Translations under genes and position numbers: made by a program
Notes under the pieces: generated by a model
Told to the model about the DNA's origin: nothing
The model's database searches: none
The model's input: only the letters and a program-made list of their open reading frames with translations
Part shown: piece after piece, positions 23,146 to 38,185 of the stretch
Layout of the letters: each line of letters begins with the position of its first letter
Position numbering within the stretch: position 1 is the stretch's first letter
NCBI RefSeq assembly: GCF_034555375.1
Contig: NZ_CP140706.1
Coordinates: 3,153,001 to 3,217,000 of the forward strand
Length of the DNA: 64,000 bases
From: Pseudomonas sp. B33.4
GTDB taxonomy: Bacteria > Pseudomonadota > Gammaproteobacteria > Pseudomonadales > Pseudomonadaceae
Reading direction: 5' to 3'

Positions 23146-25119
23146 TCAAGCACTGCTCGCCGGCCGTCCGGCGCGCAAGCCCAGTCTGACTTGCCGCAGG
23201 TAATCCTGGCGGTTGTAAGGGTTGGCCAGGGTGCGCTCCCGTCGAAGCGCGGTACCCGCGATCGGCGTATACGTGGCCAGTTGGCTCTCCATAAAACCGA
23301 GGCCACTGGTGACATCGGGTATCTGGTGCTGCAACTTGTAGATTCGCGTGGTGACGATCGAGCCTTCGATCCGCGCGGTCTCTGCGTCCAGCGTGGTGCC
23401 ATGGATTGTGGCTCCTGCCTTGGCCAGCAAACCATGCACCGCGCTGCTCATGGCCGCCGGCACTTCGATGCTGAATTGGCTGCGTGGCTCGCAGACCTTG
23501 GTGCCGGCGCGAGTGATCGCTGCAGCCAGTACCAGCGGTGTGAGGTGTCGAAAATCAGCCGCAGTGCTTGAGGGCGATGCATAGTCGACGGTGGTCAATG
23601 TCACCTCGCAATCGTGAACCATCCAGCCGCACGGGCCTTCCTTGAGACTCTCGAAGACGGATTCTTCGATCGCTTTGTAGAAACTCGTCGGCATCAGCCC
23701 GGCATGGGCCTGCCGAATAAACGTGAGCCCCGAGCCCGCGGCCCCGGGACTGACACGAATACCGACGGTGGCGAGAAACGGGTTGTCGGGTTCATCGATA
23801 GATTCCTGGGCTTGACCAGACGCTTGCAGGGTTTCAACGCAGATCGCCGAGCTTTCCTCGAAGACCGCCTCTATGGCGTACTCCTCTTGCAACGTGGCCT
23901 GGATGATCTCCTTTTGCACCTCGCCGTACAGCGAGACGAACATTTGCCCTGCTGGATTTCGACGCAAATCGATCAGCGGGTCCTGTTCTGCCAGCAGGCT
24001 CAATGCTTCCCAGAGGGCTTTGGTCTGCGCTGGCAAAGCGGCTGAAACATGGGTTTCGATCGCCGGTGGGGTAAAGGTGTGCGCGGCGGTGTTCCGTTCT
24101 TTGCACGCGCCGATCTGATCACCGATGCGCACGCCTTCAAGCCCGGTGATGCAAGCGATCTGGCCTGCGCGGGCGAGGGTTGCCGGTTGCAGACCGCCGC
24201 TCTCGGAGACCTGAATGGCGGTGATTCTGCTGGTGCCTAGCGGCGTCTCGATCGATTGGCGTACGTGCAGCGTGCCGGCCTGGACGCAAACATGAAAACG
24301 CCGGTGCCCACCCCAGCCCCGGTCGATTTTGAATACCGAGGCGAGCACGGGCGCCTCGGTATCGTGACATTTGGCCGGGGCCAACCGCGTGAGCGTCTCG
24401 ATCATCTGTGCGACACCAACTCCAGTAATGGCGGACCCGGCAAACACCGGATTGATCAGTCCTCTGCCCAGTTGCTCGCGCACTGCTTGCTCAAGGCGCG
24501 AACTTTCGATTGTTTGCGCCGCCGTCACGTAGTCGTGCAACAACGTCTCATCGTGTTCGCACAACACGTCCAGCCACTGTGACGCGACCTCGGCTGACGC
24601 CGGATCAGAGCGCTCGACCGTCGCCTGCGCCGTTCCGGCCTCATGCACAGCGCACAAGGCTAACGGGCGACTCTTGAGTTGTACTTCGAGAGCCTCCAGG
24701 GTGCGCAGAAAATCGGCGCCTTTGCGATCAACCTTGTTGATGAAGAACACATGAGGTATCGCCATGCGTTGCAGGGCATTGACCAGTACTCGGGTTTGCG
24801 CCTGAACCCCCTCGACGGCCGACACCACGACGACGGCGAGGTCCAGCAAGGCAAGCGTACGCTCCACTTCGGCAATGAAATCCGGGTGTCCGGGGGTGTC
24901 CAGCAGATTGACCAGCAGGTGGTTGAGCTCGAACGAGGCCACGGCGGATTTGATCGTGATGCCGCGTTCCCGTTCCAGTAGCAGGTTGTCGGTGCAGGTG
25001 TTGCCCGAATCCACACTGCCCAGGCGCAGACGCGCACCGGCATCGAACAGGATCCGTTCGGTAAGGCTGGTCTTGCCGGCATCGACGTGCGCGAGGATTC
25101 CCAGATTAAGGGACTTCAT
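23146..25119 (-). CDS. TetM/OtrA-like ribosomal protection GTPase (EF-G paralogue)
   Basis: 657 residues. G-domain motifs: G1 LAHVDAGKTSL (9-19), G2 ERGIT (51-55), G3 DTPGH (74-78), G4 NKVD (128-131). The N-terminal run (NLGILAHVDAGKTSLTERIL, GSVDSGNT, TDNLLLERERGIT) is the signature of tetracycline ribosomal protection proteins rather than housekeeping EF-G, and the length is close to TetM (639). Domains II-V follow. These GTPases bind the ribosome like EF-G and eject tetracycline; the actinobacterial OtrA is a producer self-resistance version. Here it diverges from the tiny peptide genes, so I infer self-protection for the neighbouring cluster. AGGAG lies 9 bases before the ATG. Actual tetracycline resistance is untested. 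Confidence 0.85.
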   Translation of the reverse strand: MKSLNLGILAHVDAGKTSLTERILFDAGARLRLGSVDSGNTCTDNLLLERERGITIKSAVASFELNHLLVNLLDTPGHPDFIAEVERTLALLDLAVVVVSAVEGVQAQTRVLVNALQRMAIPHVFFINKVDRKGADFLRTLEALEVQLKSRPLALCAVHEAGTAQATVERSDPASAEVASQWLDVLCEHDETLLHDYVTAAQTIESSRLEQAVREQLGRGLINPVFAGSAITGVGVAQMIETLTRLAPAKCHDTEAPVLASVFKIDRGWGGHRRFHVCVQAGTLHVRQSIETPLGTSRITAIQVSESGGLQPATLARAGQIACITGLEGVRIGDQIGACKERNTAAHTFTPPAIETHVSAALPAQTKALWEALSLLAEQDPLIDLRRNPAGQMFVSLYGEVQKEIIQATLQEEYAIEAVFEESSAICVETLQASGQAQESIDEPDNPFLATVGIRVSPGAAGSGLTFIRQAHAGLMPTSFYKAIEESVFESLKEGPCGWMVHDCEVTLTTVDYASPSSTAADFRHLTPLVLAAAITRAGTKVCEPRSQFSIEVPAAMSSAVHGLLAKAGATIHGTTLDAETARIEGSIVTTRIYKLQHQIPDVTSGLGFMESQLATYTPIAGTALRRERTLANPYNRQDYLRQVRLGLRAGRPASSA

Positions 25120-25255
25120 GGTTGATCGCTCCTGATCATACGGCTGACGAGGCGGGTGTCGGCCGGTCGAACTCCATTCGAATGCGCTGTCTCACGGCGG
25201 ATACTTCCAGTTACCACCGCTGACGGTTGTTTAAACTAGTTGAGGTTTGCAGGTG

Positions 25256-25261
25256 CGTCAA
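25256..25261 (-). promoter_or_regulatory. Possible -35 box of a promoter for the ribosomal protection gene
   Basis: On the minus strand TTGACG (25261-25256) is followed after 17 bases by TAGTTT (25238-25233), a weak -10 match. This would start transcription about 110 bases before the GTPase ATG. It is a pattern match only. Confidence 0.25.
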
Positions 25262-25482
25262 TTCACCACGGACTGTTGCAATTTGTTTCTGTTGTACCTT
25301 TCAACGCGGAAGGTGCCGAATTCTCGAGGCGCGACGGCGGGTAACTTTCTGTACACCGTCACAAATCGCAAAAAACATGATCGGGTTATTTTTCATTTAA
25401 ACCATTGATACACGTCAAAAAACGCCATTGGAACTAACTGGAAGGTTCGTTTTGCCCTGGCAAGAGCCTTTCAAAAACCTTC

Positions 25483-25511
25483 TTGACGTATCTTCGGATG
25501 ACAGCTAAATC
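25483..25511 (+). promoter_or_regulatory. Candidate promoter of the tandem peptide genes
   Basis: TTGACG (25483-25488) and TAAATC (25506-25511) are separated by 17 bases. The -35 matches the sigma-70 consensus at five of six positions; the -10 is poor, so an activator may be needed. Transcription would start near 25518, giving a leader of about 44 bases before the first peptide ATG. The whole 25120-25561 gap (442 bases) is AT-rich relative to its flanks and holds no other gene that I can support. Confidence 0.35.
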
Positions 25512-25518
25512 TTACGGC

Positions 25519-25533
25519 GCTGCAATTTGCAGC
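25519..25533. promoter_or_regulatory. 15-base perfect palindrome at the expected transcription start
   Basis: GCTGCAATTTGCAGC is 7 + 1 + 7 bases of perfect dyad symmetry. It lies just downstream of the candidate -10 and 29 bases before the first peptide gene. It could be an operator or a 5' UTR hairpin. No recognised regulator gene lies in the cluster itself, so the cognate protein would act in trans. Confidence 0.4.
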
Positions 25534-25561
25534 AAACTTTAAATCACATGGAGATAGTGAA

Positions 25562-25618
25562 ATGATCAAATATCAAAGCGTACAAAATCGGATGCTGTCG
25601 GCGCTGTTCATCCTCTGA
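25562..25618 (+). CDS. 18-residue peptide gene, copy 1 (candidate precursor peptide)
   Basis: Encodes MIKYQSVQNRMLSALFIL followed by TGA. GGAG lies 8 bases before the ATG. The peptide is a short polar N-terminal half with basic residues (K3, R10) and a hydrophobic C-terminal half, LSALFIL. It resembles no precursor family that I know. Coding is supported by comparison with copy 2 (25723-25779): 10 of 18 codons differ, 7 of the changes are silent and 3 are conservative (Y/F, Q/N, M/I). I infer a precursor of a peptide natural product made by the downstream operon. A stalling leader peptide or a small secreted or membrane-active peptide are alternatives. Confidence 0.72.
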   Translation: MIKYQSVQNRMLSALFIL

Positions 25619-25722
25619 GAAGCGGTAACTTTTATTCCGGTCGTGTTGAAAGACTTGGCTGCGAATGAAGTAACGGAATCGCATGGATACGCCATGCATA
25701 CTTTCAAAAAAGGAGCTTCAAC

Positions 25723-25779
25723 ATGATTAAGTTCAATAGCGTACAGAACCGAATTCTTTCGGCACTGTTCATCCTCTGA
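25723..25779 (+). CDS. 18-residue peptide gene, copy 2 (candidate precursor peptide)
   Basis: Encodes MIKFNSVQNRILSALFIL and ends in TGA. A strong AAAAAAGGAG precedes the ATG by about 8 bases. The last five codons, from CTG to the stop, are identical in DNA to copy 1, while the bases after the stop and between the copies are unrelated, so the duplication is not recent. A small hairpin (GCATGG, 5-base loop, CCATGC at 25681-25697) precedes it. The terminator at 25817-25843 follows 37 bases after the stop. Function is inferred from context only. Confidence 0.74.
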   Translation: MIKFNSVQNRILSALFIL

Positions 25780-25816
25780 TTGTCCGCTGTACACAAGATA
25801 CCGGTGTCTTGTGAGG

Positions 25817-25843
25817 TACGGCCGAAGCGTTGCTTCGGCCGTA
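25817..25843 (+). terminator. Strong hairpin terminator/attenuator between peptide genes and operon
   Basis: A perfect 12-base-pair stem (TACGGCCGAAGC, loop GTT, then its complement) is followed by TTTAAT. A weaker hairpin (ACAAGATA, CCGG, TGTCTTGT) lies just before it. No promoter is obvious between it and the TPR gene at 25890. Partial readthrough would give many peptide transcripts and few enzyme transcripts, common in peptide-product clusters. Regulated readthrough would make it an attenuator. Confidence 0.75.
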
Positions 25844-25889
25844 TTTAATCTCGACAGCGCAGTTTCTACATGTCATTAGGGAAAGTGAT

Positions 25890-27143
25890 ATGCACAGCAA
25901 ATTGGACGATGCGTTTTCGCGCGCCGTGTTTTTCTATGATGACTCAGGCGCCCATCCGACGAACTGGTCGCGCTCCGTGTGTGCGGGCCTGGCAGAACAG
26001 AACTTCGATGAGGTGCCTTATCGGGTGCCTCAACTGCTTGAACCCTCGACGTTGATTGAGGTGGCGCAGCGCCACGCCATAGGTGTCGACGAACTGGAGT
26101 TTTTTTCCTACCCGATGGATGGCCCGGTGACCAAGGTCAAGTGGTTGGCCGACATGCTGGAGTGGGCCCCGCCAGTGCAGAAATTGAGCCTCGCGCAATG
26201 TCTGGCGGCCAGTTGCAGGTACCGCTACGCCAATCAGGTCCTGACGAAAATCCCTTACGAGGCACTGTTTCCCGACCAGCGTGTGACATTTCATCTGACC
26301 CGGTTCGCCATTCAGAACCGTCTTGAAATGACCACATCGCATCAGGAAGACTTCACTGCGCTCAAAGCATTGCTGCAGGCTCAGCGTATGCCACCGTCCC
26401 GGGTTCTGGACGTTTGCTCGCAGGCGATTGTCTGGAAATTGAAGGGCGACTCCATCGATGATGAGTTGAACAAATGGTTCATCGACGCTGGCGAAAAGGC
26501 CGCCCGGCAGATTGCCTCAAGCGACGCGCCGGTGGATCTGGTTTCGCTGTCATCGTTCTATCGCGGACTGGCCATGGTGCCGGCAGCCCGGGGCGATGTG
26601 GCAACCACGCGGCAATACATGCTGCTGGCCGAAGAATATGCCGATGCGGTCATCCGTGGTGAAAAAGGCGCGAGTATCCCGGCAAGGGAAGCGCGCAAGA
26701 CTGTCTATGAATCCAAGCTCAAGGAAATGCTCTATGTCGCCCGCGACATCGAGAGGGCCCGCCAGGTGGCTGACGAGTTGATCGCCTACGATCCCCACTG
26801 GAGCATCTCCTACCACGAGGCTGCCGAGATCGAAGTCAAGGATCAGCAATGGCAGCGTGCGTTGCAACGTTACCAGCAAGCTTACGATATCGGTTTTCCA
26901 CGAGTGACTTACTCGCAGTACATGATCGGTGCCTGTCACCAGCAAATGGGTAACTTCGATCAGGCATTGGCGGCATTCAAGGGCACCTTGTCGCTGGACA
27001 CAACCAATATATCCGCAGGCGTCGCCGGTTATGGAGTGGCCCTGGAACATGTTCCAGAACAGTTGCCTTACTTCAAGTCCTGCATCGACCGCTGGCATGC
27101 TGACGGTATATTGCCCGACGAATATCGAGGGTTAGTCCAATGA
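25890..27143 (+). CDS. TPR-containing protein, first gene of the peptide-cluster operon
   Basis: 417 residues from MHSKLDDAFSRAVFFYDD; AGGGA lies upstream, and the start is placed after the terminator. There is no signal peptide or membrane helix, so it is cytoplasmic. The C-terminal half has tetratricopeptide-like helix pairs: ERARQVADELIAYDPHW, WQRALQRYQQAYDIGFP, FDQALAAFKGTLSLDTTN. The N-terminal 150 residues match no family that I recognise. TPR domains bind peptides or partner proteins, so a scaffold or precursor-binding role is plausible but unproven. Its stop overlaps the ATG of the next gene (ATGA). Confidence 0.72.
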   Translation: MHSKLDDAFSRAVFFYDDSGAHPTNWSRSVCAGLAEQNFDEVPYRVPQLLEPSTLIEVAQRHAIGVDELEFFSYPMDGPVTKVKWLADMLEWAPPVQKLSLAQCLAASCRYRYANQVLTKIPYEALFPDQRVTFHLTRFAIQNRLEMTTSHQEDFTALKALLQAQRMPPSRVLDVCSQAIVWKLKGDSIDDELNKWFIDAGEKAARQIASSDAPVDLVSLSSFYRGLAMVPAARGDVATTRQYMLLAEEYADAVIRGEKGASIPAREARKTVYESKLKEMLYVARDIERARQVADELIAYDPHWSISYHEAAEIEVKDQQWQRALQRYQQAYDIGFPRVTYSQYMIGACHQQMGNFDQALAAFKGTLSLDTTNISAGVAGYGVALEHVPEQLPYFKSCIDRWHADGILPDEYRGLVQ

Positions 27144-27574
27144 GCGTCGTACTTGACAAGATCAGGATAGTCGCTGTGGATCATATTCAGCTGGACGTCG
27201 CTGACATTGAAGAGAGTCGCGATTTTTATGCGCGAGTGTTTGGCTTCGAAGTCAAGGAGGTGGGTATTCGCGCATTTACTCGCTGGATGACGATCGGGGC
27301 CAATGAAACACTTTATTTGTGCATGCATGAGTATGCAGAAGGTCGCGGCGTAAAAAACGACGGACTGGAAATTACTCACTTCGGGATTTTGGTGGAGGAC
27401 TTTGATCGAGTATTGACGCAACTTCGCGATCATGGCGTCAAGTTACTGCCGGACTATGAAGTTCAATATCATTCTTCACGTTCCGTTTATTTTATTGACC
27501 CTAACGGTTACAAGGTCGAAATCTCCGAGAAGTACGGCGGCGGCATCGAAAGTGCCAGGTACACCTCATGCTGA
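27140..27574 (+). CDS. VOC (glyoxalase/bleomycin-resistance fold) protein
   Basis: 144 residues, a complete two-module VOC fold. VDHIQLDVADIEESRDFYARV supplies the first metal-ligand histidine. ITHFGILVEDFDRVLTQL supplies the second, and FIDPNGYKVEISE has the terminal glutamate. With these ligands it could be a metal-dependent lyase, isomerase or dioxygenase acting on the peptide, or a binding protein that sequesters the product. Its start overlaps the TPR gene by four bases and its end overlaps the next gene by seven, so the three are co-translated. Confidence 0.78.
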   Translation: MSVVLDKIRIVAVDHIQLDVADIEESRDFYARVFGFEVKEVGIRAFTRWMTIGANETLYLCMHEYAEGRGVKNDGLEITHFGILVEDFDRVLTQLRDHGVKLLPDYEVQYHSSRSVYFIDPNGYKVEISEKYGGGIESARYTSC

Positions 27575-28710
27575 GCGTTACCGCGGATCGCGCGGCACCC
27601 GGAACGGTGTATGCGCAGCACCTGCAAAGCACCTGGTACAAAAACAACCAGGCGCTGCGCAGTCACAGACCCTGGCATGAAAGCTCGCACAAGGACTGGC
27701 AGGCGCCTCCGACTTTTCAACGCACGGTGTCCTGCGACGAGAGGGTATGGAGCATTCCCGGCAGGATCGCTGATGACCGGATTCTGTTCGGCTGCTGGGA
27801 TAACAGCTTGCAGTGCGTACGCTTGAGTGACGGCGAGCCACAGTGGCGGTTTGCGACTCAGGGACCGGTCTACAGCTCGCCAGCCGTGTCGGCAGACGGC
27901 AGTTTCGTCGTGGGCTGCGAGGACCATCTGCTACGTCGCATCTCCCGTGACGGCGAATGCCTGTGGACGTTTCAGGCGCAGGGGCCGTTTCACGCCAGCC
28001 CGACCATCGACTCGGCCAGGGATATCGTCTACGCCGGCAGCTACGACCATACGCTCTACGCCGTCGATCATGCTTCGGGCACGTTGCTGTGGAAGCAATC
28101 CTTCGACGATCAGGTTGAGGACGACCTCTACAGTTCACCGGCACTGGACGGGAACGGCAATGTCATCGTCGGTACGGACAATGTGCTGATGTGCTTCAGC
28201 CCCGAAGGCGAGGAGCGCTGGAGAATCACCGAAACCAGCCGGTTTGAAGGCACTGCTGCGATCGACCATGCCTCGGGACGCGGGATCATCGGCACCGAAG
28301 TCGACGGCAAGATCATTGTCTTCAATGCTGCCGACGGCACGGTGCTGCAGCAATTTCACACCGACGGTTTCGTGGTGTCCTGCCCGAGCCTGTCGCCCGA
28401 AGGTGTGGCGTATGTCGGCAGCAATGACGGTCACGTGTACGGCATTGATCTGCACAGCCTGAAGATGTTGTGGCGGGTCAATCTCGCCTGCGAATTCCGC
28501 TACACACCCTTCACCGTGCTGCCAAGCGGCGACGCGTTGTTCGTCGGCACCGATGAGCGCTTGCACTGCCTGGCCCAACATAGCGGACAAACCTTGTGGC
28601 AACTGGAGCACGACACGGGATTTCATTCTTCGCCGTTGCTCACTGATGATGGGCACCTGGTAATTGGCTCGCACCGTAACGCTGTGCATTTTTATCAATG
28701 GATCCGCTAG
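27568..28710 (+). CDS. Cytoplasmic PQQ-type beta-propeller repeat protein
   Basis: 380 residues made of repeated blades of the PQQ-enzyme/BamB type: GEPQWRFATQGPVYSSPAVS, ECLWTFQAQGPFHASPTI, GTLLWKQSFDDQV, LKMLWRVNLACEF, QTLWQLEHDTGFHSSPLL. Most blades end in S-S-P or S-C-P. No signal peptide is present, unlike BamB and PQQ dehydrogenases, so a cytoplasmic binding or scaffold role is more likely than quinoprotein catalysis. A propeller inside a peptide-modifying operon could also be an enzyme of the cyclase or lyase sort. This is open. Confidence 0.75.
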   Translation: MLSVTADRAAPGTVYAQHLQSTWYKNNQALRSHRPWHESSHKDWQAPPTFQRTVSCDERVWSIPGRIADDRILFGCWDNSLQCVRLSDGEPQWRFATQGPVYSSPAVSADGSFVVGCEDHLLRRISRDGECLWTFQAQGPFHASPTIDSARDIVYAGSYDHTLYAVDHASGTLLWKQSFDDQVEDDLYSSPALDGNGNVIVGTDNVLMCFSPEGEERWRITETSRFEGTAAIDHASGRGIIGTEVDGKIIVFNAADGTVLQQFHTDGFVVSCPSLSPEGVAYVGSNDGHVYGIDLHSLKMLWRVNLACEFRYTPFTVLPSGDALFVGTDERLHCLAQHSGQTLWQLEHDTGFHSSPLLTDDGHLVIGSHRNAVHFYQWIR

Positions 28711-28746: not shown

Positions 28747-29394
28747 ATGAGTCACGAACTGGAAGTCGAGACGCTCTTCGACGAGTGGGCCATCGAGGAT
28801 GGCGCGGTGGACATGGCCCGCGAGCATTGGGCGCGGGTCGAACCGGTATTGTCCGCGCTTGAACCCTCTGCAGGTCGCTACCTGGAGATCGGTCCGGGCA
28901 ACGGATATGCCCTGGAGTACATGGCCCGCTCGAAGTTTGCCAAAGGCTATTGCCGTGCCGTGGAGCTCAGTCAGGAAATGGCGCGCATGTGCAGAGCCAG
29001 AGTCCAGGACTGCCGCAATGTCGACATTGATGTCGAGAGTTTCATGAACTGGCAGCGGCCGGCGGGCATGCAGTTTGAGCTGATTTTTTCCATGGAGGTG
29101 TTCTATTACTTCGAAGACGTCACCGCCGCTATCGAAAAAGCCGCCGGCCTGCTGGCGCCCGGTGGCGAGCTGATTGTCATGGTGGACTACTACGAAGAAA
29201 GCGAAGAGTCGCAGGGATGGGAGCAAGAGCTGGAGGTCAAGCTGACACGCTGGCCACGAAGCCGATTCCTCGAAGCCTTCAAAGCGGCGGGCCTGCAAGG
29301 TGTCAGCCAAGAGGAAAAAAGTGGTGGCGTGCACGAGCATGGCGTAACGCTCTGCACCCGAGGTACAAAAGCCTCGACAGGCGTAGCCGCGTGA
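28747..29394 (+). CDS. Class I SAM-dependent methyltransferase
   Basis: 215 residues, Rossmann-fold methyltransferase. Motif I is YLEIGPGNGYALEYM, the acidic residue after strand 2 is in RAVELSQEMARMC, motif post-II is FELIFSMEVFYYFED, and motif III is LLAPGGELIVMVDYY. AGGAG lies 7 bases before the ATG. It sits 36 bases downstream of the propeller gene in the same direction. In context it may methylate the peptide or a derived intermediate; N-, O- or C-methylation cannot be told from sequence. Confidence 0.85.
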   Translation: MSHELEVETLFDEWAIEDGAVDMAREHWARVEPVLSALEPSAGRYLEIGPGNGYALEYMARSKFAKGYCRAVELSQEMARMCRARVQDCRNVDIDVESFMNWQRPAGMQFELIFSMEVFYYFEDVTAAIEKAAGLLAPGGELIVMVDYYEESEESQGWEQELEVKLTRWPRSRFLEAFKAAGLQGVSQEEKSGGVHEHGVTLCTRGTKASTGVAA

Positions 29395-29443: not shown

Positions 29444-30286
29444 ATGCGCTTTGCCGGGAAGGCGCCGGTGATTTCCCATCTGGATCACGTCGTCTACCCT
29501 GTGTCGCAAGGCCTGTTCGATGAGGTCATCGGCCAGTTCACCCGTGCAGGCTTTACGGCGCATACGCGACAAGTGCGTCACGATGATGGCCGTGTCAGCG
29601 CATTCTTCCGGCTGAACGGCGGGTACCTGGAGTTCTGCTCGGGCAATCTGGAGGGGAGCGATCGAGGTTGTTCAATCTGGCTGTGTTCAACGGATCTGGT
29701 GGCACATCTGGCGTGCCTTTTGCCCTCGCAACGCGCGGCCCTGACCCTGTCGGCCAAGGCTCCGGCGGGGGAGACGGCGCCGGCCTGGCTGATCGCCAAC
29801 GTACCCGCTGGCGGTACGGACGATGTCAGTCTGTCGCTCATCGAGTATGTGCGCGGCATCGGTGGCGACCTTGCCACTCAAGTCTCGGATAACGGCTTGT
29901 TTGCGCTCGGCGGGGTGTCCTTGCTCTGTGCCCGGCCCGAGCAGGAACAACACCATTACTTCACACACCTGGATGACCGGGTCAGCATCGCAATGGAGCC
30001 GGGACGCTTGATGATCGGCCAGCAGCGTCTGGCCTTTCTTGATCGTCAGACATTACCCGACAACGCGTCGACCGCGTTGATGGCGGCGCCGTGTCTGGTG
30101 CACCTGATCACGGTTGACGTCGGTCGGACGAAGGCGATGCTGCTGGCGGCCGGTTTCAAACTGCAAGAAGTACTCGGCCTCGGCCTGTTGGCGCAATCGA
30201 GCCTGTTGCCTGCGGTTTGCCTGGTGATCGACGACGGTTTGTCTGTGCAAGCCCATCACGATCAACTGCTGGCTCGCCGTGGCTGA
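29444..30286 (+). CDS. Glyoxalase-like (VOC superfamily) domain protein
   Basis: 280 residues. The N-terminus (ISHLDHVVYPVSQGLFDEV) fits the glyoxalase-like domain group that is distant from classical VOC proteins, and a second divergent VOC-like half lies at about 175-275 (LVHLITVDVGRTKAMLLAAGF). No signal peptide. The family is poorly characterised. It is the second VOC-type protein of this operon and is not similar in sequence to the first. The ATG at 29444 has a weak GGGTGAG upstream, so the start is less certain. Confidence 0.65.
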   Translation: MRFAGKAPVISHLDHVVYPVSQGLFDEVIGQFTRAGFTAHTRQVRHDDGRVSAFFRLNGGYLEFCSGNLEGSDRGCSIWLCSTDLVAHLACLLPSQRAALTLSAKAPAGETAPAWLIANVPAGGTDDVSLSLIEYVRGIGGDLATQVSDNGLFALGGVSLLCARPEQEQHHYFTHLDDRVSIAMEPGRLMIGQQRLAFLDRQTLPDNASTALMAAPCLVHLITVDVGRTKAMLLAAGFKLQEVLGLGLLAQSSLLPAVCLVIDDGLSVQAHHDQLLARRG

Positions 30287-30367: not shown

Positions 30368-31354
30368 ATGTCAAAAGCAATCGAGCTGTGTGGTATCAGC
30401 AAGGTTTACGAAGTTTACCGGGCCCGTGACGAGCAGTCGCGCAGCCTGCTGAGTTACTTTCGTCGCGAGAAGACGTACGTACCGGCTGTTACGGATGTTT
30501 CCTTCTCGATAGAGGCGGGTGAGGTGGTCGGCTTTCTCGGCGGTAATGGCGCGGGCAAGACCACCACGCTGAAAATGCTCTCGGGTATCGTGCGACCCAG
30601 CGCAGGGCACCTCTCGGTACTGGGCCATGACCCGTTCAAGCGGCGCGCGGAGTTTCTCAAGTCGATCGCGCTGGTCATGGGGCAAAAGCAGCAGTTGACC
30701 TGGGATCTGCCGGCGCTGGAGTCCTTCCATCTTCATGGTGCGCTGTACGATATTGCGCCTGTCGAATGCAGGCGCCGGATCGATGAGCTGTGCCAGTTGC
30801 TGTCCGCCGGCGACATCATTCGGCGTCCAGTCAGGAAGCTGTCGTTGGGCGAACGGATGAAATGCGAGCTCATTCTTTCGCTGCTGCATCGCCCGAGTAT
30901 CCTGTTTCTCGACGAGCCGACCATCGGCCTTGACCTGGAAATGCAGGTCGCCATTCGCAAATTCCTCCTTGAGTACAACCGCGAGTCTGGCGCCACGATC
31001 ATTCTCACCTCCCATTACATGGCGGACATCGAGGCATTGGCCAACCGCGTCATCGTGCTGGACCAAGGACGCGTGGTGTTCGATGGCGCACGTCAGGCGC
31101 TGGTCAAGGCGCACGTCAACGAACGCCAGGTCAGCCTGCGCTTTTCCTCGCAAGTCGGCAGCGACGAACTGAGCGTTTACGGCAATCTGCTCAGCCTGGA
31201 CAGTGAAAGCGCCGAGCTGCTGGTGCCTGAAGAGCAGTTCGCCGACACCGTGGCGCAACTGCTGGCGAACTTTCCGGTGACGGACATCTCGATCCAGACG
31301 CCCTCTCTGGAGCAGGCGTTTCCGCGCCTGTTGCTGCCAAAGGAGCACGCGTGA
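30368..31354 (+). CDS. ABC transporter ATP-binding subunit (ABC-2 exporter)
   Basis: 328 residues. Walker A GGNGAGKTT (58-66), signature LSLGER (158-163), Walker B ILFLDEP (178-184), and the H-loop in ILTSHYMADIEAL. The insert at the start (ARDEQSRSLLSYFRREK) and the HYMADIEALANRV end match the natA/viologen-exporter-type ATPase group that works with DUF990-like permeases. AAGGAAAGG precedes the ATG. The TGA overlaps the ATG of the first permease. Together the three genes form an exporter, the probable route out for the product. Confidence 0.9.
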   Translation: MSKAIELCGISKVYEVYRARDEQSRSLLSYFRREKTYVPAVTDVSFSIEAGEVVGFLGGNGAGKTTTLKMLSGIVRPSAGHLSVLGHDPFKRRAEFLKSIALVMGQKQQLTWDLPALESFHLHGALYDIAPVECRRRIDELCQLLSAGDIIRRPVRKLSLGERMKCELILSLLHRPSILFLDEPTIGLDLEMQVAIRKFLLEYNRESGATIILTSHYMADIEALANRVIVLDQGRVVFDGARQALVKAHVNERQVSLRFSSQVGSDELSVYGNLLSLDSESAELLVPEEQFADTVAQLLANFPVTDISIQTPSLEQAFPRLLLPKEHA

Positions 31355-32157
31355 TGGTTGCTCTGGCTTCGTGGCCCGGCATCGCCGGGCGCCTGATTCG
31401 TACAAGCGTGCTGGTGACGGTGGTCTACCGGGCGCAGTTGTTTGTCTGGTTGATCAGCGGCGTTGCACCGTTGTTCATGATGATGATCTGGTGGGAGCTG
31501 TCTCGGGACAAGGTCATCGGCGGCTATGCGCCCAGTGATTTCGTGGCGTATTTCCTCGGCATCTATCTGGTCAGACAGCTGACTGCCGTATGGGTCATCT
31601 TCGTTTTGAACGACGAAATCCGCCAAGGCACGCTGTCCGGTCGCCTGCTGAAACCGGTCGCACCCTTCTGGTTTCATGTGGCGGAGCATTTGGGACAGAT
31701 GGTGGTACGCGCACCGATCGTCATCACCGTGTTCTGTGTCGGGGCCTCGTTGTTTGTCATCGACCTGGCAGCGATCGCCTGGCGATTACCGTTATTCCTC
31801 GTCTCGCTGGTGCTGGCCTGGATCATTATTTTCCATATCTATTACTGCGTCGGCCTGCTTGCGTTCTGGATGGCCAATTCGCTGGCGCTGGATGCAATGG
31901 TCTGGTCGATGTACACGGTGCTGGGCGGCATGCTGATTCCGGTCGACCTGTTTCCCGAAGCGACCCGTCATCTGGTGGCGTTGCTGCCGTTTTCCGCCTC
32001 ACTGGATTTTCCGGTCAAGGTGTTGATCGGCAAGGCTGCCGACGGCGATCTGCTGCAGGGTTTCGCGGTGCAGCTGTTCTGGGTGGTGCTGCTGGTGGGG
32101 CTGCGCCGAAGGCTGTGGCGCCAAGGGTTGAAGCGTTTTTCGGGGGCCGGCATATGA
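31354..32157 (+). CDS. ABC-2 type exporter permease, subunit 1
   Basis: 267 residues from MVALASWPGIAGRLIR; the ATG overlaps the preceding stop (TGATG). There are about six membrane helices (e.g. LFVWLISGVAPLFMMMIW, IVITVFCVGASLFVI, LFLVSLVLAWIIIFHIYYCVG). A cytoplasmic GTLSGRLLKPV segment matches the coupling motif of the ABC-2 family (DUF990-like) permeases. Its last bases overlap the ATG of the second permease by four (ATGA). Confidence 0.85.
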   Translation: MVALASWPGIAGRLIRTSVLVTVVYRAQLFVWLISGVAPLFMMMIWWELSRDKVIGGYAPSDFVAYFLGIYLVRQLTAVWVIFVLNDEIRQGTLSGRLLKPVAPFWFHVAEHLGQMVVRAPIVITVFCVGASLFVIDLAAIAWRLPLFLVSLVLAWIIIFHIYYCVGLLAFWMANSLALDAMVWSMYTVLGGMLIPVDLFPEATRHLVALLPFSASLDFPVKVLIGKAADGDLLQGFAVQLFWVVLLVGLRRRLWRQGLKRFSGAGI

Positions 32158-32942
32158 ACCTGCGACCGTTGAAAGTGCTGCTGGCCCTGATCAGGCATTC
32201 GATGCTTGCGGAGCTGGAATTTCGTATCAATGCCGTCACCAATGCCCTGAACACGGTGGTCGGGATGCTCCTGGCGCTGTACTTCCTCGATGCCATGTTC
32301 AGCGAAGTCGGAAGTCTGGGGGGCTGGAACCTGCATCAGGTACTGGCGCTGTTCGGCGTGGCCCTGGTGCTGGAAGGTTTGCTTGAGGTCTGGCTGTTTC
32401 CCAGCCTGCACGCGCTGTCGGAGCAAGTGCGCACCGGGGATCTGGACTACATGCTGGTGCGCCCGGTCGACAGCCAGTTTCTGGTGTCATGCTCGAAAAT
32501 CAGCCTTTGGGAACTGCCTCGTGTATTGATCGGGCTTGCGGTCGTTGTGTATGCGATGCACATCGAAGGTGCGCTAGGGGTGGGCAATCTCTCGGCGTTT
32601 CTGGGGTTGATGGCGGCAGGAGTGGCGATCTTCTACTCGTTGTTTCTGATCACCTGCACCTTGTCGATCTGGTTTGTGAAGATTGGTGATGTCTGGATCA
32701 TCAGCTACACGCTCATGGAGATCGCGCGGTTTCCGGTCACGGCGTTTCCGCAGACGATCCGCATGGTCCTGACGTTTCTGGTCCCGGTGTATTTCGTTTC
32801 GAATGTCCCGGTAGCGGCGGCCATGGGCATGGTCGGCTGGCAGGAGGTCATGGGCGCGCTGCTTTTTGCCGTCGCGTTTGTTTGTCTGTCACGGGTGTTC
32901 TGGCTGTTTGCGCTGCGTTCCTACAGCAGTGCCAGCAGTTAG
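32154..32942 (+). CDS. ABC-2 type exporter permease, subunit 2
   Basis: 262 residues from MNLRPLKVLLALIRHSML. The frame is open well upstream, but that stretch overlaps permease 1, and the ATGA overlap at 32154 marks the start. About six membrane helices with the family motif GDLDYMLVRPVDSQF in the first cytoplasmic loop region, the counterpart of GTLSGRLLKPV in subunit 1. The two permeases would form a heterodimer with the ATPase at 30368. Substrate unknown; proximity to the peptide genes suggests a peptide-derived product. Confidence 0.85.
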   Translation: MNLRPLKVLLALIRHSMLAELEFRINAVTNALNTVVGMLLALYFLDAMFSEVGSLGGWNLHQVLALFGVALVLEGLLEVWLFPSLHALSEQVRTGDLDYMLVRPVDSQFLVSCSKISLWELPRVLIGLAVVVYAMHIEGALGVGNLSAFLGLMAAGVAIFYSLFLITCTLSIWFVKIGDVWIISYTLMEIARFPVTAFPQTIRMVLTFLVPVYFVSNVPVAAAMGMVGWQEVMGALLFAVAFVCLSRVFWLFALRSYSSASS

Positions 32943-33005: not shown

Positions 33006-33806
33006 ATGAGTCGTTATTCCGGGCCTGTTTTCGACGCGCACGTGCATACCGAATTTGCGCGGGCGGACAGTCTGCAAGCTTTCAAGGCGCTGCAAGCGCG
33101 CTTCGACATCCGCGCATCCGTAACGGATTCGCATAAACCCGGTTGCGATGCCGGGCAGTTGCAGGCGCTGGGCATGACCAGGTGCGCGGTCATCGCTCAG
33201 CCTGAGTGGTCGCCAGAGTCGCTGGCGCAGGACCTGGCGCACGGTGTCTATGGGGCCATCAAAATCAATCTGGGATTCATGCATGTGCATGCTGACGATC
33301 ACAGGCTCATGCCGCTGTACACCCTGGCGCGTCAGTTTGATGTCCCGGTGCTCTTCCACAGTGGCGACACAGGCTGGCATCGCTCCAAGCTCAAGTACGC
33401 ACACCCGCTCAGCCTGGACGAGGTCATCGTCGACCATCCGGACGTGAACTTCGTTCTGGTTCACAGCGGTAACCCGTGGTTTACCGATGCCGCTGTGCTG
33501 GCCGCGAAAAACCACAACGTCTGGCTCGAACTCAGTTCGATCATCGAAGGGTCGCTGAGCGATGTTTCGCAAGCCACGCTTGGTCGGTTGATGGTCGAAC
33601 CGATCCGCTGGATGCTCGATTACACCGGCAAACCGGAGCGGTTCCTCTTCGGTTCGGGCTGGCCCAGCGTCGATTACCCTGGGTACGTGGCCGCGTGCGC
33701 CAGTGCAATCGACGAGCAGCACCACCGGCAGGTGTTCTTTGACAACGCCGCCCGGCTGTTCAAGTGGCCAGGGGAAGGGGAGCCGACATGCGACGCGCGC
33801 TCCTGA
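33006..33806 (+). CDS. Amidohydrolase family 2 (TIM-barrel metal hydrolase)
   Basis: 266 residues. The first-strand metal motif is VFDAHVHTEF, followed by a KINLGFMHVHADD segment, FHSGDTGW (strand 5), FVLVHSGNPWF (strand 6) and the terminal FGSGWPS (usual aspartate position). This is the amidohydrolase-2 family, which includes decarboxylases and hydrolases; the terminal FGSGWP differs from the common GSDxP, the acidic ligand being replaced by glycine-tryptophan. AAGGAAG precedes the ATG. It overlaps the M28 peptidase start by 19 bases. Cleaving or decarboxylating a peptide intermediate is a reasonable guess. Confidence 0.78.
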   Translation: MSRYSGPVFDAHVHTEFARADSLQAFKALQARFDIRASVTDSHKPGCDAGQLQALGMTRCAVIAQPEWSPESLAQDLAHGVYGAIKINLGFMHVHADDHRLMPLYTLARQFDVPVLFHSGDTGWHRSKLKYAHPLSLDEVIVDHPDVNFVLVHSGNPWFTDAAVLAAKNHNVWLELSSIIEGSLSDVSQATLGRLMVEPIRWMLDYTGKPERFLFGSGWPSVDYPGYVAACASAIDEQHHRQVFFDNAARLFKWPGEGEPTCDARS

Positions 33807-35371
33807 AAAAAGCCAGGCAAAAAAACGCTCGCGCTCCGGTCTTTCGCGGTTACCTGAAAAACAAGCTCCATGCGGCAGCGCTCGCCGAAAGTTGTCGGAC
33901 CTTGTCCAGCGCCCGTTTTGCCGGGCGCGGGGCAGGGGAACCCGGTGCGTGGCGAGCATCACTGTGGATTGCGCGAAAAGTACGAGCGCTAGGGTTGACG
34001 CCCTGGCAGGGCCGCCGGAGCCTGTTCCAGTCAGTCCCTCTCGGTTGCGCCACGGTGCGATCCGATGCCGAAAGCTGCCGGACGATCATTCAGGGTGATA
34101 CCCGCTACAACCTCGAACAGGACGATGAACTGCTGATCCGCTCACAGCAAACCAGGGTTTTACTCGACCACGCGCCTTTGGTCTTTGTCGGCTATGGCAT
34201 TGTCGCAGCGCAGTTCGACTGGGACGATTACGCCGGACTGGATGTTGTTGGCAAAGTGGTCGTGGTGTTGCCCAACGATCCCGGACGCAACAGCCCGGGA
34301 GGCGAACTGTTCCTCGGCCAGCGCATGAGTTACTACGGGCGCTGGGAGTACAAATACGAAGAAGCGGCCCGCCAAGGTGCGGCGGGCGTAATCATCGTCC
34401 ACACCGATGAACTGTTCGGCAGCGCGTTTCATCTGGTGCAGGACGAAATGCGCCGGCCGTTTCGCTTTCTTCCGCACGCAGTGCGCAGTCGGCTGGATTT
34501 CGAAGGGTTCTGCAGCGAACGGTTCGCACGGCGATTGTTAGCCGACGGCGGTGTTGACCTTGATGCATTCATCGCCGACCCCAGGCCAATGGCGGGACGC
34601 CCGTGCCGGCTCGATGCACACCTGCAACTGCGGCTCGATTGCGACATTGTCATCCGGCATTGCCGGAATGCGCTGGCGATGCAAAAGGGCCGACTGTTTC
34701 CCCGCCAATGTGTCCTGTTCTGCGCGCACCTGGATCACCTCGGCAAAACCGCCGACGGCAGCGGTTATTACCCGGGCGCTGTCGATAACGCGATCGGTGT
34801 GGCGGTCTTGCTTGAACTGGCCAGACGTCTGGCCGACACCACGCCGCTGCGGCGCACGGTGCTCTTTGCCTGGACGTCTGCTGAAGAGGTCGGCATGCAC
34901 GGTTCCGCACGGGTCGCACAGTTGATCCGCGAGACGGGGCTGGATGTGGTGGCGGCGCTCAACGTCGATGGTTTCGTACCGATTGGCAGAACCCGTGATC
35001 TGTTTCTGGTGGACGGCGATCAGTCCGATTTGCCCAATGCCTTTGTCAGTGCCGCCCACACCCTGGGGCGCACAATCAGTCTCGATGAAGAGCCTTCGGC
35101 GGGATACTTTTTCCGCTCTGATCAGGCGAGTTTTGCCCGGATTGATATCCCCACGGTGCAGGTGAGCACCGGCAGCGACTTGTTCAAAGGAGGCGTTGAG
35201 GAAGGCATGAAGCGGCATGATTTCTATGACTCGAATACGTACCACCACACATCCGATACGTTCAACCGCTACTGGGATTTTGCCAGCCTCATTGCCGATG
35301 TCGACGTCCTTGACGAAACCCTGCATCTGCTCGGCGATTCTTCAATGCGTCCGGCGCTGCGCAGGCGTTAA
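33788..35371 (+). CDS. M28-family metallo(amino)peptidase with PA domain, no signal peptide
   Basis: 527 residues from MRRALLKKARQKNARA; the ATG at 33788 follows GGGGAGCC. The N-terminal ARFAGRGAGEPG is usual for secreted M28B peptidases, and a PA-type insert lies at about 125-270. The two-zinc site is complete: H314 and D316 (AHLD), D333 (AVDN), E366/E367 (TSAEEVG), D394 (LNVDG) and H487 (YHHTSD). Most relatives are exported, but this one has no signal peptide and so should act in the cytoplasm. Together with the amidohydrolase it is a good candidate for trimming the 18-residue peptides from the N-terminus. Confidence 0.85.
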   Translation: MRRALLKKARQKNARAPVFRGYLKNKLHAAALAESCRTLSSARFAGRGAGEPGAWRASLWIARKVRALGLTPWQGRRSLFQSVPLGCATVRSDAESCRTIIQGDTRYNLEQDDELLIRSQQTRVLLDHAPLVFVGYGIVAAQFDWDDYAGLDVVGKVVVVLPNDPGRNSPGGELFLGQRMSYYGRWEYKYEEAARQGAAGVIIVHTDELFGSAFHLVQDEMRRPFRFLPHAVRSRLDFEGFCSERFARRLLADGGVDLDAFIADPRPMAGRPCRLDAHLQLRLDCDIVIRHCRNALAMQKGRLFPRQCVLFCAHLDHLGKTADGSGYYPGAVDNAIGVAVLLELARRLADTTPLRRTVLFAWTSAEEVGMHGSARVAQLIRETGLDVVAALNVDGFVPIGRTRDLFLVDGDQSDLPNAFVSAAHTLGRTISLDEEPSAGYFFRSDQASFARIDIPTVQVSTGSDLFKGGVEEGMKRHDFYDSNTYHHTSDTFNRYWDFASLIADVDVLDETLHLLGDSSMRPALRRR

Positions 35372-35479
35372 AGGCCGGGCTATCGACCTTGCATGCAATG
35401 ATGGCAATATGGCGGCTACTGGAGAGGTAGCATTCGGCGCGAAGCGAAGCCGGATGTCATGCGTATAGGGACGAGGAAT

Positions 35480-38185
35480 ATGGCTTCGATTCAGATGGAT
35501 GGTGAGGACAAGACCGCAAAGATCAGCGACTGGGCGATTCGCTGGAGCGACAGGGACGCATTTCTGCAGCTGACCTGTCATTACCCCTCCAGAAAAAAAG
35601 ACACCCGCCCGCTCAGTGATTGCCTGGTTTCGCCCACCCGCGAGTTGAGCAATGTCTTGCTGCACAAGCGCGGCGGCACCAAGCCCATCGTCAACGCTAC
35701 GATTTACGGCGAGCGCTATGCCGTCGTGCACTACCCGGGCGGCAAAAAACCTTATGTTCACAAAATGGACGGCATCGGCTTTACCGCTCCGACAGCGATG
35801 CGGGACACGCCGGTCTTCCGCTATCTCACTGCCGTGGCGCAAGCCCGACAGAGTCACGGTAAGTCGCAGGATGATCGTGAAATTGCCGACAATGTGGTGC
35901 GTCAGCTCGAAAAACTGCCCGCCATCGCTGGCACTGCCTTGCAAGCCTACTGTACGGGACGCAACGGCACGCTGGCGCCGGGGCAGGGGCTGATCTATCC
36001 GTTCGGGCTGAACGAGAGTCAGCTTAAGGCCGTCGAGCGGGCATTCAGCGCGCAAGTCAGCGTGATCGAAGGGCCGCCAGGAACCGGCAAGACCCAGACG
36101 ATCCTCAACATCCTCGCCAACATTCTGTTACGCGGACAGACAGTCGCAGTGTTGTCCAACAACAATGCTGCCGTGGAGAACGTCTACGAAAAGCTGGAGA
36201 AATACGGCCTGGGCCACCTGGTCGCCAAGCTTGGCAACCAGAGCAAACGCCAGGCCTTCTTCGACGACCTGCCTGCGTGGACGCCAAGTGCGCCCGAGGC
36301 GGCACCATCCCTCGATGAGGTCCAGAACCTGCTGACACGCTTGAAGCAGCACCTGCAAGACCACAACAGGGCGGCGCAACTGCAAATCGAGCTGGACGAG
36401 CTGGTCATCGAGCGGCTCTACCTGCAGCAGTGGCAGGCAGAAAGCGCTGTACAGGCCACCGGTACGCTCGACAAGTACGGCCTGACACCGCGCAAGACTG
36501 CGGACCTCATGGCCTACCTGGCTTACCTCGGCGAACAGCGCATCCATCTCAAAGACCGTATCGAGCTACTGTTCAAATTCAGGATCTTTCGCACCAGGCC
36601 ATTCGCCGACGCCGAGGCGCGCATGGCCGTTTTCCATGCCCTGCAAATGCATTACTACGACAAGTCGCTCCGGGACAAGGAAGCGCAGCTGCAGGCGTGC
36701 CGTGATTCGTTGGCGCGCGCGAATTTCACGGCGCTGCTCAAAGAACTGACAACCGCATCGATGCAGCATCTCAAGCACCACCTGCAACTTCAGGTCCCGC
36801 CGTCGGACAGTTTTGATGTCAAAACCTACTGCGAGCGTTTCGATACCTTTATGCAGCGCTTCCCTATCCTGGGCAGCGGCACGCACTCCATCGTCAATTC
36901 GATCGCGCCGGGAGCGGTCCTCGATTACGTGATCATCGATGAAGCCTCTTTGCAGGACATCGTACCGGGCATCCTGCCGCTGGGCTGCGCAAAGAACCTG
37001 ATCGTCGTGGGCGACAACCGCCAGTTGCCGCATATCCCCGTGACGCTGGGGCTGCAAGCGCCCGCCGAGGCCTACGATTGCGAGCGCTACAGCTTGCTCG
37101 ATTCGTGCATTGCGGTGTTCCAGGACGCGCTGCCCAGAACCCTGCTGAAAGAGCATTACCGCTGCCACCCCAGGATCATCCAGTTCTGCAACCAGCAGTT
37201 TTACGACAACGCACTGGTGCCGATGACCGAGGACAACGGCGAAGCGCCCCTGCGTCTGGTGGTGACGGCCAAGGGCAACCACGCCCGGAAGAACACCAAC
37301 CTTCGGGAACTGGACTCCCTGCTGAAGGTGCTAGAAGAGGAGGGGCAACCCGTCGGAATGGACGGTGAAGGCCGCGGTTACATTGCCCCGTACAGGGCAC
37401 AAGTTAATCTGTCCGGCACGCACTTGCCGGCGGATTTCGTCAAGGACACCGTGCACAAGTTTCAGGGGCGCGAGTGCGACGAGATCGTGTTTTCCACCGT
37501 GCTCGACAAGAAGCGCTACAACCAGGGGCGAACACGCCTGGATTTCGTCGACGACCCGCGCATGATCAACGTGGCCGTTTCGCGGGCCAAACATCGCTTC
37601 ACCCTGGTAACCGGCGATGAGGTGTTCACGGGCAACAATGGCCACATTGCTGCGCTGATCCGCTACATCAGCTATTACGCGCAAGACGAGCAGATCGTGC
37701 GGGCGCCGGTGGTCTCGGCATTCGACTTGCTGTACCGCGAGTACGACCAGTCTCTGGCACGCCTGGACGCTCGCTTGCGGCCTGAGGATTCACGCTACAA
37801 GTCCGAGCAGATCGTGGCCCGGTTGCTGCGCGAGGCACTGTCGGCCCCGGCGTGCCAGGCATTGAAATACCACACACAGATTCAGCTGGATCAGCTTGCA
37901 TCACCGGCTGGCCTCGACTGGACGCAGCCCCAACAGGCGTTCATGCGGCGCGCCAGTTGCGATTTCGTGATCTATTTCAAAGTGGGCAAGCAACCGATAG
38001 GAGTGATCGAAGTCGATGGCGGGTACCACGACCACCCCGTACAGGCCGCTCGGGACGCCATGAAAAATGAGATTCTGGCTAAGAGCGGCATTCCCATTCT
38101 GCGGCTGCGGACCGTTGAGAGTGGCATTGAGCGCAGAATTGGCGACTTTATCGGGCAGTGGGCCCGTCCCGCGAATGGCGCATAA
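35480..38185 (+). CDS. Superfamily 1 DNA/RNA helicase (UPF1/Dna2-like) with C-terminal DUF2726 domain
   Basis: 901 residues from MASIQMDGEDKTAKI; an ATG 21 bases upstream (35459) is the alternative, but AGGGACGAGG fits 35480 better. Helicase motifs: Walker A GPPGTGKT (about residue 198), an AVLSNNNAAVENV segment, Walker B VIIDEAS, VVGDNRQLPHI, EHYRCHP, HKFQGRECDEIV and VAVSRAKHR. The C-terminal 140 residues form a DUF2726 domain with VIEVDGGYHDHP, resembling a PD-(D/E)xK nuclease core. Solitary helicase-nuclease fusions are often suspected of phage defence. It lies 108 bases after the M28 gene on the same strand; I see no reason beyond proximity to join it to the peptide cluster. Confidence 0.82.
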   Translation: MASIQMDGEDKTAKISDWAIRWSDRDAFLQLTCHYPSRKKDTRPLSDCLVSPTRELSNVLLHKRGGTKPIVNATIYGERYAVVHYPGGKKPYVHKMDGIGFTAPTAMRDTPVFRYLTAVAQARQSHGKSQDDREIADNVVRQLEKLPAIAGTALQAYCTGRNGTLAPGQGLIYPFGLNESQLKAVERAFSAQVSVIEGPPGTGKTQTILNILANILLRGQTVAVLSNNNAAVENVYEKLEKYGLGHLVAKLGNQSKRQAFFDDLPAWTPSAPEAAPSLDEVQNLLTRLKQHLQDHNRAAQLQIELDELVIERLYLQQWQAESAVQATGTLDKYGLTPRKTADLMAYLAYLGEQRIHLKDRIELLFKFRIFRTRPFADAEARMAVFHALQMHYYDKSLRDKEAQLQACRDSLARANFTALLKELTTASMQHLKHHLQLQVPPSDSFDVKTYCERFDTFMQRFPILGSGTHSIVNSIAPGAVLDYVIIDEASLQDIVPGILPLGCAKNLIVVGDNRQLPHIPVTLGLQAPAEAYDCERYSLLDSCIAVFQDALPRTLLKEHYRCHPRIIQFCNQQFYDNALVPMTEDNGEAPLRLVVTAKGNHARKNTNLRELDSLLKVLEEEGQPVGMDGEGRGYIAPYRAQVNLSGTHLPADFVKDTVHKFQGRECDEIVFSTVLDKKRYNQGRTRLDFVDDPRMINVAVSRAKHRFTLVTGDEVFTGNNGHIAALIRYISYYAQDEQIVRAPVVSAFDLLYREYDQSLARLDARLRPEDSRYKSEQIVARLLREALSAPACQALKYHTQIQLDQLASPAGLDWTQPQQAFMRRASCDFVIYFKVGKQPIGVIEVDGGYHDHPVQAARDAMKNEILAKSGIPILRLRTVESGIERRIGDFIGQWARPANGA

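Follow-up and report, generated by a model that had tools for sequence, protein, structure and literature searches.

We analyzed a window of DNA, that is, a whole stretch of 64,000 nucleotides from the genome of Pseudomonas sp. B33.4 (6.6 Mb in a single contig), in which two very small tandem genes precede an operon of putative peptide-modifying enzymes. Peptide gene 1 (25562..25618, forward strand) and peptide gene 2 (25723..25779, forward strand) each comprise 18 codons plus TGA and encode MIKYQSVQNRMLSALFIL and MIKFNSVQNRILSALFIL, respectively; genes of 18 residues are below the size that gene finders usually call. Shine-Dalgarno-like sites lie before both, GGAG at 25550-25553 and AAGGAG at 25710-25715, in agreement with a first-pass annotation of this DNA that had described two tandem 18-codon open reading frames (ORFs) with ribosome binding sites. 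A gene for a probable ribosomal protection protein, on which that annotation was silent, lies just upstream in the opposite orientation.

The two copies differ in 10 of their 18 codons, and our recount gave the same seven silent and three conservative changes (Y/F, Q/N, and M/I) as reported before. Third codon positions account for 10 of the 12 base differences. When an equal number of changes with a matched transition/transversion mix was placed at random on copy 1, with no stop permitted, 7.4 residue changes were expected compared with the 3 observed, and three or fewer were obtained in 0.12% of 20,000 simulations. Since seven of the ten differing codons are silent, it appears to be the residues, not the codons, that are kept. 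The DNA around the copies had been called unrelated, and ungapped identity is indeed 15% over the 40 bases before and 25% over the 40 bases after them. The copies share their final 15 bases, CTGTTCATCCTCTGA, without a difference, as do all six close loci, so that the 3' end of the ORFs may be constrained at the nucleotide level in addition.

Those six loci come from the Pseudomonas assemblies with a close version of the operon: the window's own, G311 (L004/L011), G230 (L005/L009), G362 (L006/L012), L008, and L010. Both peptides are intact in all six, with zero frame breaks, and residue changes among the orthologues are limited to position 5 (Q/H and N/T) and a single Y/F at position 4. Variable columns make up 18% of peptide gene 1 and 14% of peptide gene 2, as opposed to 59% of the DNA separating the two, 41% of the 22 bases preceding peptide gene 2, and 56% and 69% of the upstream stretches 25120-25300 and 25301-25545; the values for the TPR gene start and the hairpin region past peptide gene 2 are 25% and 16%. 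The ORFs thus vary less than their surroundings, which together with the simulations upholds the proposal that they are conserved tiny proteins, not random repeats. Two outcomes had been named beforehand as damaging to that proposal, a lack of conserved copies beside homologous operons and frame-breaking differences between homologues; what we found instead were intact pairs in all six assemblies, a homologue within a Rhizobium cluster, and no broken frame across the six loci. The peptide genes therefore appear to encode precursor peptides under selection, as is expected of the superclass of ribosomally synthesized and posttranslationally modified peptides (RiPPs).

Whole-genome searches covered groups around the window's genome. 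The 18-mers were found in 4 of 398 genomes of the genus Pseudomonas (G000, G230, G311, and G362), with two copies in each, and the same four carry the close operon and the TetM/OtrA-like protection gene. A chance repeat is ruled out by this distribution, the codon simulation, and the column variability in the six loci. Besides these four genomes, which all have the TPR gene, G395 has one with 30% identity. Run on 369 genomes at the class level and 398 at the phylum level, both sets including the window's genome, the TPR query matched that genome alone; it matched no phage record, and the A1 query matched no viral contig. The named loci matched by the TPR protein were all from Pseudomonas, the nearest being P. 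neuropathica P155 at 98% (three loci).

The operon, all on the forward strand, runs from the two peptide genes to a TPR superhelix protein of 417 residues (25890..27143), probably the peptide-binding subunit of a maturation enzyme; the VOC metalloenzyme VOC1 with invariant H15, H80, and E127 (27140..27574); a pyrroloquinoline quinone (PQQ)-type beta-propeller of the Beta-prop_ACSF4 type (27568..28710); an S-adenosylmethionine (SAM) methyltransferase (28747..29394); VOC2, a second, divergent VOC-like protein (29444..30286); a DrrA-like ABC transporter ATPase (30368..31354); two ABC-2 permeases of PF06182 (31351..32157 and 32154..32942); an amidohydrolase of PF04909 (32946..33806); and an M28 peptidase, probably for trimming or release (33764..35371). 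Family scans and comparison with homologues agree with the first-pass description, in which the operon encodes modifying enzymes along with two hydrolases (the amidohydrolase and the M28 peptidase) and an exporter. The ten operon proteins were scanned against Pfam and NCBIfam at an E value of 0.001, with the best 25 NCBIfam matches considered for VOC1 and the ABC ATPase. The hallmark enzymes of known RiPPs, namely, YcaO, LanM/LanB, radical SAM, ThiF/MccB, PEARL, and DUF692/MNIO proteins, were absent from the matches listed for these ten proteins. The methyltransferase gave a marginal match to a daptide RiPP methyltransferase (8.4e-4; 18.9 bits, with a cut-off of 175). A role in antiphage defense was rejected, as PADLOC at 0.001 returned no match for the TPR protein, VOC1, the propeller, VOC2, the amidohydrolase, or the M28 peptidase; the methyltransferase matched mad2 in part (4.5e-13).

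More distant relatives define what is constant in these clusters. On Rhizobium rhizogenes plasmid pC5.7d (L014), homologues of all the cluster's genes are present apart from the ABC ATPase and the two permeases, and a major facilitator superfamily (MFS) transporter gene is nearby. Identity to the window's proteins is highest for VOC1 (59%); it is 48% for the methyltransferase, 44% for the amidohydrolase, and 30% for the M28 peptidase, and VOC2 reaches just 25% over 171 aligned residues. Behind an AAGGAG and after VOC1 lies an 18-codon ORF, MVEFTSTKMEILSSLFII, and a hairpin with a short T run comes next; the ORF is not listed in the gene table of the record, which describes itself as incomplete. 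In a control that ranked 16,298 start codons, each with 16 or more open codons and taken from ten sequence sources, by likeness to the 18-mers, this peptide came first behind the twelve Pseudomonas orthologues, with 9 of 18 identities. The pattern common to Pseudomonas and Rhizobium is M-[IV]-[KE]-[YF]-x-S-x(5)-L-S-[AS]-L-F-I-[IL]. A second plasmid record, MK318988, has a TPR gene identical to that of L014. The paper PMC6546132, on Ti and opine-catabolic plasmids, does not use the words phosphonate, tetracycline, or antibiotic in its main text.

The more distant Pseudomonas operon of G395 (L013) begins, behind an AAGGAG, with an ORF of 55 residues, MIKYESTEFAKVSAYF..., whose N terminus is like the 18-mers, and continues with a hairpin and genes for an M3 peptidase, TPR protein, VOC protein, MATE exporter, propeller, arginase-family protein, O-methyltransferase, and JmjC protein. 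Three relatives of the 55-mer in the protein database (P0021-P0023) are 98, 82, and 75% identical and aligned over 80 to 100%, and none was found on viral contigs. The TPR protein of L013 matched G395 itself and no other genome among 34 relatives of G395. A plasmid of Macrococcus armenti (L015) carries a TPR gene annotated as two ORFs, a VOC gene (54%), a MATE gene, and a propeller gene (26%), along with a candidate peptide of 19 residues, MKSFSTGKVRAALFPSPTT, with its own Shine-Dalgarno site and a strong hairpin; by eye, it is loosely like the 18-mers (an aromatic residue at position 4, T at position 6, and ALF). TPR, VOC1, and propeller genes and a tiny peptide, in L015 a candidate, are thus common to four locus types, and export, tailoring, and protection genes vary. 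Modifying enzymes lie beside a precursor gene in the window, L013, and L014, as in RiPP clusters, and beside the candidate peptide in L015. Of 20 clusters of TPR relatives, three (P0001, P0002, and P0005) correspond to loci read here, and the other 17 include Bacillota (Marininema and Cytobacillus). Two Streptomyces plasmid matches covered 44% of the TPR query, and for one such plasmid (L016) the gene table, which is incomplete, lists no gene by the name of VOC or propeller.

Divergent from the peptide genes, at 23146..25119 on the reverse strand, lies a gene for a TetM/TetO/OtrA-type ribosomal protection protein that probably serves self-protection. Its full-length similarity to TetO (1.4e-103) and TetM (1.3e-101) far exceeds that to the best EF-G (4.2e-55), and the SPxSTxADF stretch is kept in the proteins of the window, L010, and L012; that exact string is absent from the Rhizobium relative. 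The protein resembles Tet(M), Tet(O), and Otr(A) in these matches, this stretch, and its score with the NCBIfam model tet_protect, but differs in that the score, 614.8 bits, is under the curated cut-off of 775 and in that the gene is tied to a peptide gene cluster. Of the cluster genes scanned, none is a polyketide gene. At an E value of 1e-120, the protection gene was found in 4 of 398 genus genomes, the identical set to those with the 18-mers. Identity to the window's protein is 98% in G311, 96% in G230, 80% in G362, 70% in L010, and 51% in Rhizobium; the four genus genomes are not independent cases, and L010 and Rhizobium add two more. Tetracycline bound at the A site of the 30S subunit is removed by ribosomal protection proteins of this type. 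The window's protein is therefore the strongest hint of what the product acts on, and for Pseudomonas and Rhizobium a 30S A-site inhibitor is the likeliest product.

Past peptide gene 2 lies a conserved RNA element (25785..25859, forward strand) with predicted hairpins at 25792-25813 and 25814-25846 within an outer stem; by eye, the stem is partly broken in L010. The predicted fold of 25780-25889 has a z score of -5.25. Rfam gave no match at an E value of 1, and a known structured RNA was rejected on this basis. The element is possibly an attenuator or stabilizer between the precursor and enzyme genes. Upstream, TTGACG and TAAATC, 17 nucleotides apart (25483..25511, forward strand), are a weak match to a promoter, and conservation of the blocks in six loci makes them a possible promoter of the peptide operon. 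An inverted repeat, GCTGC-AATTT-GCAGC (25519-25533), occupies the leader 5' of peptide gene 1, with its arms kept in the six loci.

Peptide genes 1 and 2 probably encode the precursors from which a peptide-derived natural product is made, and the best reading of the two 18-mers is as members of an undescribed, RiPP-like TPR/VOC family. In the mechanism that we propose, precursors would be made in excess over the enzymes because the hairpins past the last peptide gene would damp enzyme transcription. The TPR superhelix would then grip the conserved peptide stretch; VOC1, as a metal enzyme, and the propeller would make the defining modification; and the methyltransferase, VOC2, the amidohydrolase, and the M28 peptidase would tailor and cut the peptide. 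The ABC-2 transporter would export the product and the adjacent TetM/OtrA-like GTPase would keep the ribosomes of the producer working, which points to an inhibitor that probably binds the 30S A-site region. What the peptides have in common is approximately the first 16 residues, after which they end in IL, II, perhaps PSPTT in L015, or a 39-residue acidic tail in L013; these residues may hence be either a recognition stretch or the part that contains the modified residue ([YF]4, [ST]6, or the common F). The product is possibly a ribosome-targeting antibiotic, and we put the ribosome as its target at about even chances.

A regulatory role would also fit short ORFs upstream of an operon. If the peptides were leader peptides, translation of the tandem ORFs would control whether the hairpins are read through to the enzyme genes, as in attenuation at erm genes and amino acid operons, and the peptide would be discarded. 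The conserved structured RNA right past ORF 2, with its low z score and few variable columns, and the adjoining ribosomal protection gene are in line with this. However, we regard it as unlikely: the silent changes show residues kept over codons, there are two copies with unrelated flanks, the Rhizobium peptide lies within its cluster, after VOC1, and the L013 relative has 55 residues and three database relatives of high identity.

Even less probable, in our estimation, is that the 18-mers are secreted pheromones with the TPR protein as their receptor, as in the Rap/PlcR/NprR systems. Rap and NprR are among the matches of the TPR protein, but they are outscored by a number of eukaryotic TPR superhelices, LGN among them, so the resemblance may be one of general fold. 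The family scan reported no DNA-binding domain (Rap proteins are not known to have one either), four locus types have the TPR gene next to VOC1 and not far from that of the propeller, and the peptides show by eye no evident export signal or pro-region. We give an equally low chance to unmodified, short hydrophobic toxins or bacteriocins that leave through the ABC transporter, with the enzymes making something else. The hydrophobic C terminus LSALFIL and the exporter in the operon would suit such a role, but the exporter is of ABC, MFS, or MATE type depending on the locus, whereas TPR, VOC1, and propeller are constant; the peptide thus goes with the enzymes and not with the exporter. As these three and a tiny peptide recur and the rest varies, a precursor with its maturation core suits the data better than a leader, a pheromone, or an unmodified toxin.

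Several observations weigh against the precursor reading or parts of it. A consensus scan of 25100-26000 gave neither a forward-strand promoter nor a terminator at the hairpins, and the hairpins of the window lack a T run. No PqqD-like RiPP recognition domain was among the matches listed for the ten operon proteins; many RiPP classes have no detectable recognition element. The likeness of the L013 peptide, itself 55 residues long, is weak when taken alone (8 of 16) and tied with one unrelated ORF, and the L015 candidate aligns solely with a gap and is not among the 28 best matches listed in the control. The four sampled genomes with the protection gene are of one genus and partly near-identical, and no match to it was found in the stretches of L013 and L015 that were compared, so these two may make something other than a 30S A-site inhibitor.

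The arrangement is like that of known RiPP classes, with a short conserved precursor gene, then a hairpin, near tailoring enzymes, a peptidase, an exporter, and a probable self-protection gene. It differs in its recurring set of TPR protein, VOC metalloenzyme, and propeller, with no hallmark enzyme among the matches listed. PQQ and mycofactocin also derive from tiny precursors, PqqA and MftA, and by description the window's peptides would be alike in being tiny precursors cut up into a small product; those pathways need radical SAM enzymes and a PqqD-like domain, and neither is among the matches listed for the window operon. Bottromycin-type precursors have the core first and an acidic follower. 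The 55-residue L013 relative, with its conserved N-terminal stretch and acidic C-terminal tail, is similar, and the window operon shares an amidohydrolase and a probable ribosome target; in contrast, no YcaO or radical SAM methyltransferase is among its listed matches and the 18-mers have no tail. A literature search judged by titles and abstract openings yielded no TPR/VOC peptide pathway.

More tentatively, as a possibility that we hold somewhat short of even, these loci may represent a new RiPP class in which the core maturase, a TPR protein, acts together with a VOC metalloenzyme and a beta-propeller on precursors down to 18 residues; the Pseudomonas and Rhizobium members would be A-site translation inhibitors, and the TetM/OtrA-like proteins would have evolved for these and not for tetracycline. 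If so, 18-residue precursors would mark a biosynthetic family of Pseudomonas, Rhizobium, and probably Bacillota, with an enzyme combination that has no counterpart in the literature searched by title and abstract opening. The link to a TetM/OtrA-like gene would predict a target ahead of the compound, and it would suggest that ribosomal protection genes guard against nontetracycline products too.

Some neighboring genes deserve mention. A helicase-like gene with PADLOC matches to MkoA/MkoC (35459-38185) lies directly past the operon, and L008, L009, and L011 have the gene beside theirs as well; the L010 and L012 stretches compared gave no match to it. In Rhizobium, genes for PEP mutase, phosphonopyruvate decarboxylase, and 2-aminoethylphosphonate (AEP) transaminase alternate with the propeller and amidohydrolase homologues (L014:1585-6836), which suggests that the Rhizobium product may carry aminoethylphosphonate. 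The locus also has 2-aminoethylphosphonate and cytidylyltransferase/LicD genes. On the Macrococcus plasmid, an unlisted 25-codon ORF, MKIEIVQLNEVELTKRGGRNEVGES (L015:3066-3143), sits between genes for a ThiF-family adenylyltransferase and an arginase-family protein, has a full Shine-Dalgarno site, and is followed by a hairpin and a T run; it resembles a further precursor gene, perhaps one of an MccB-like pathway.
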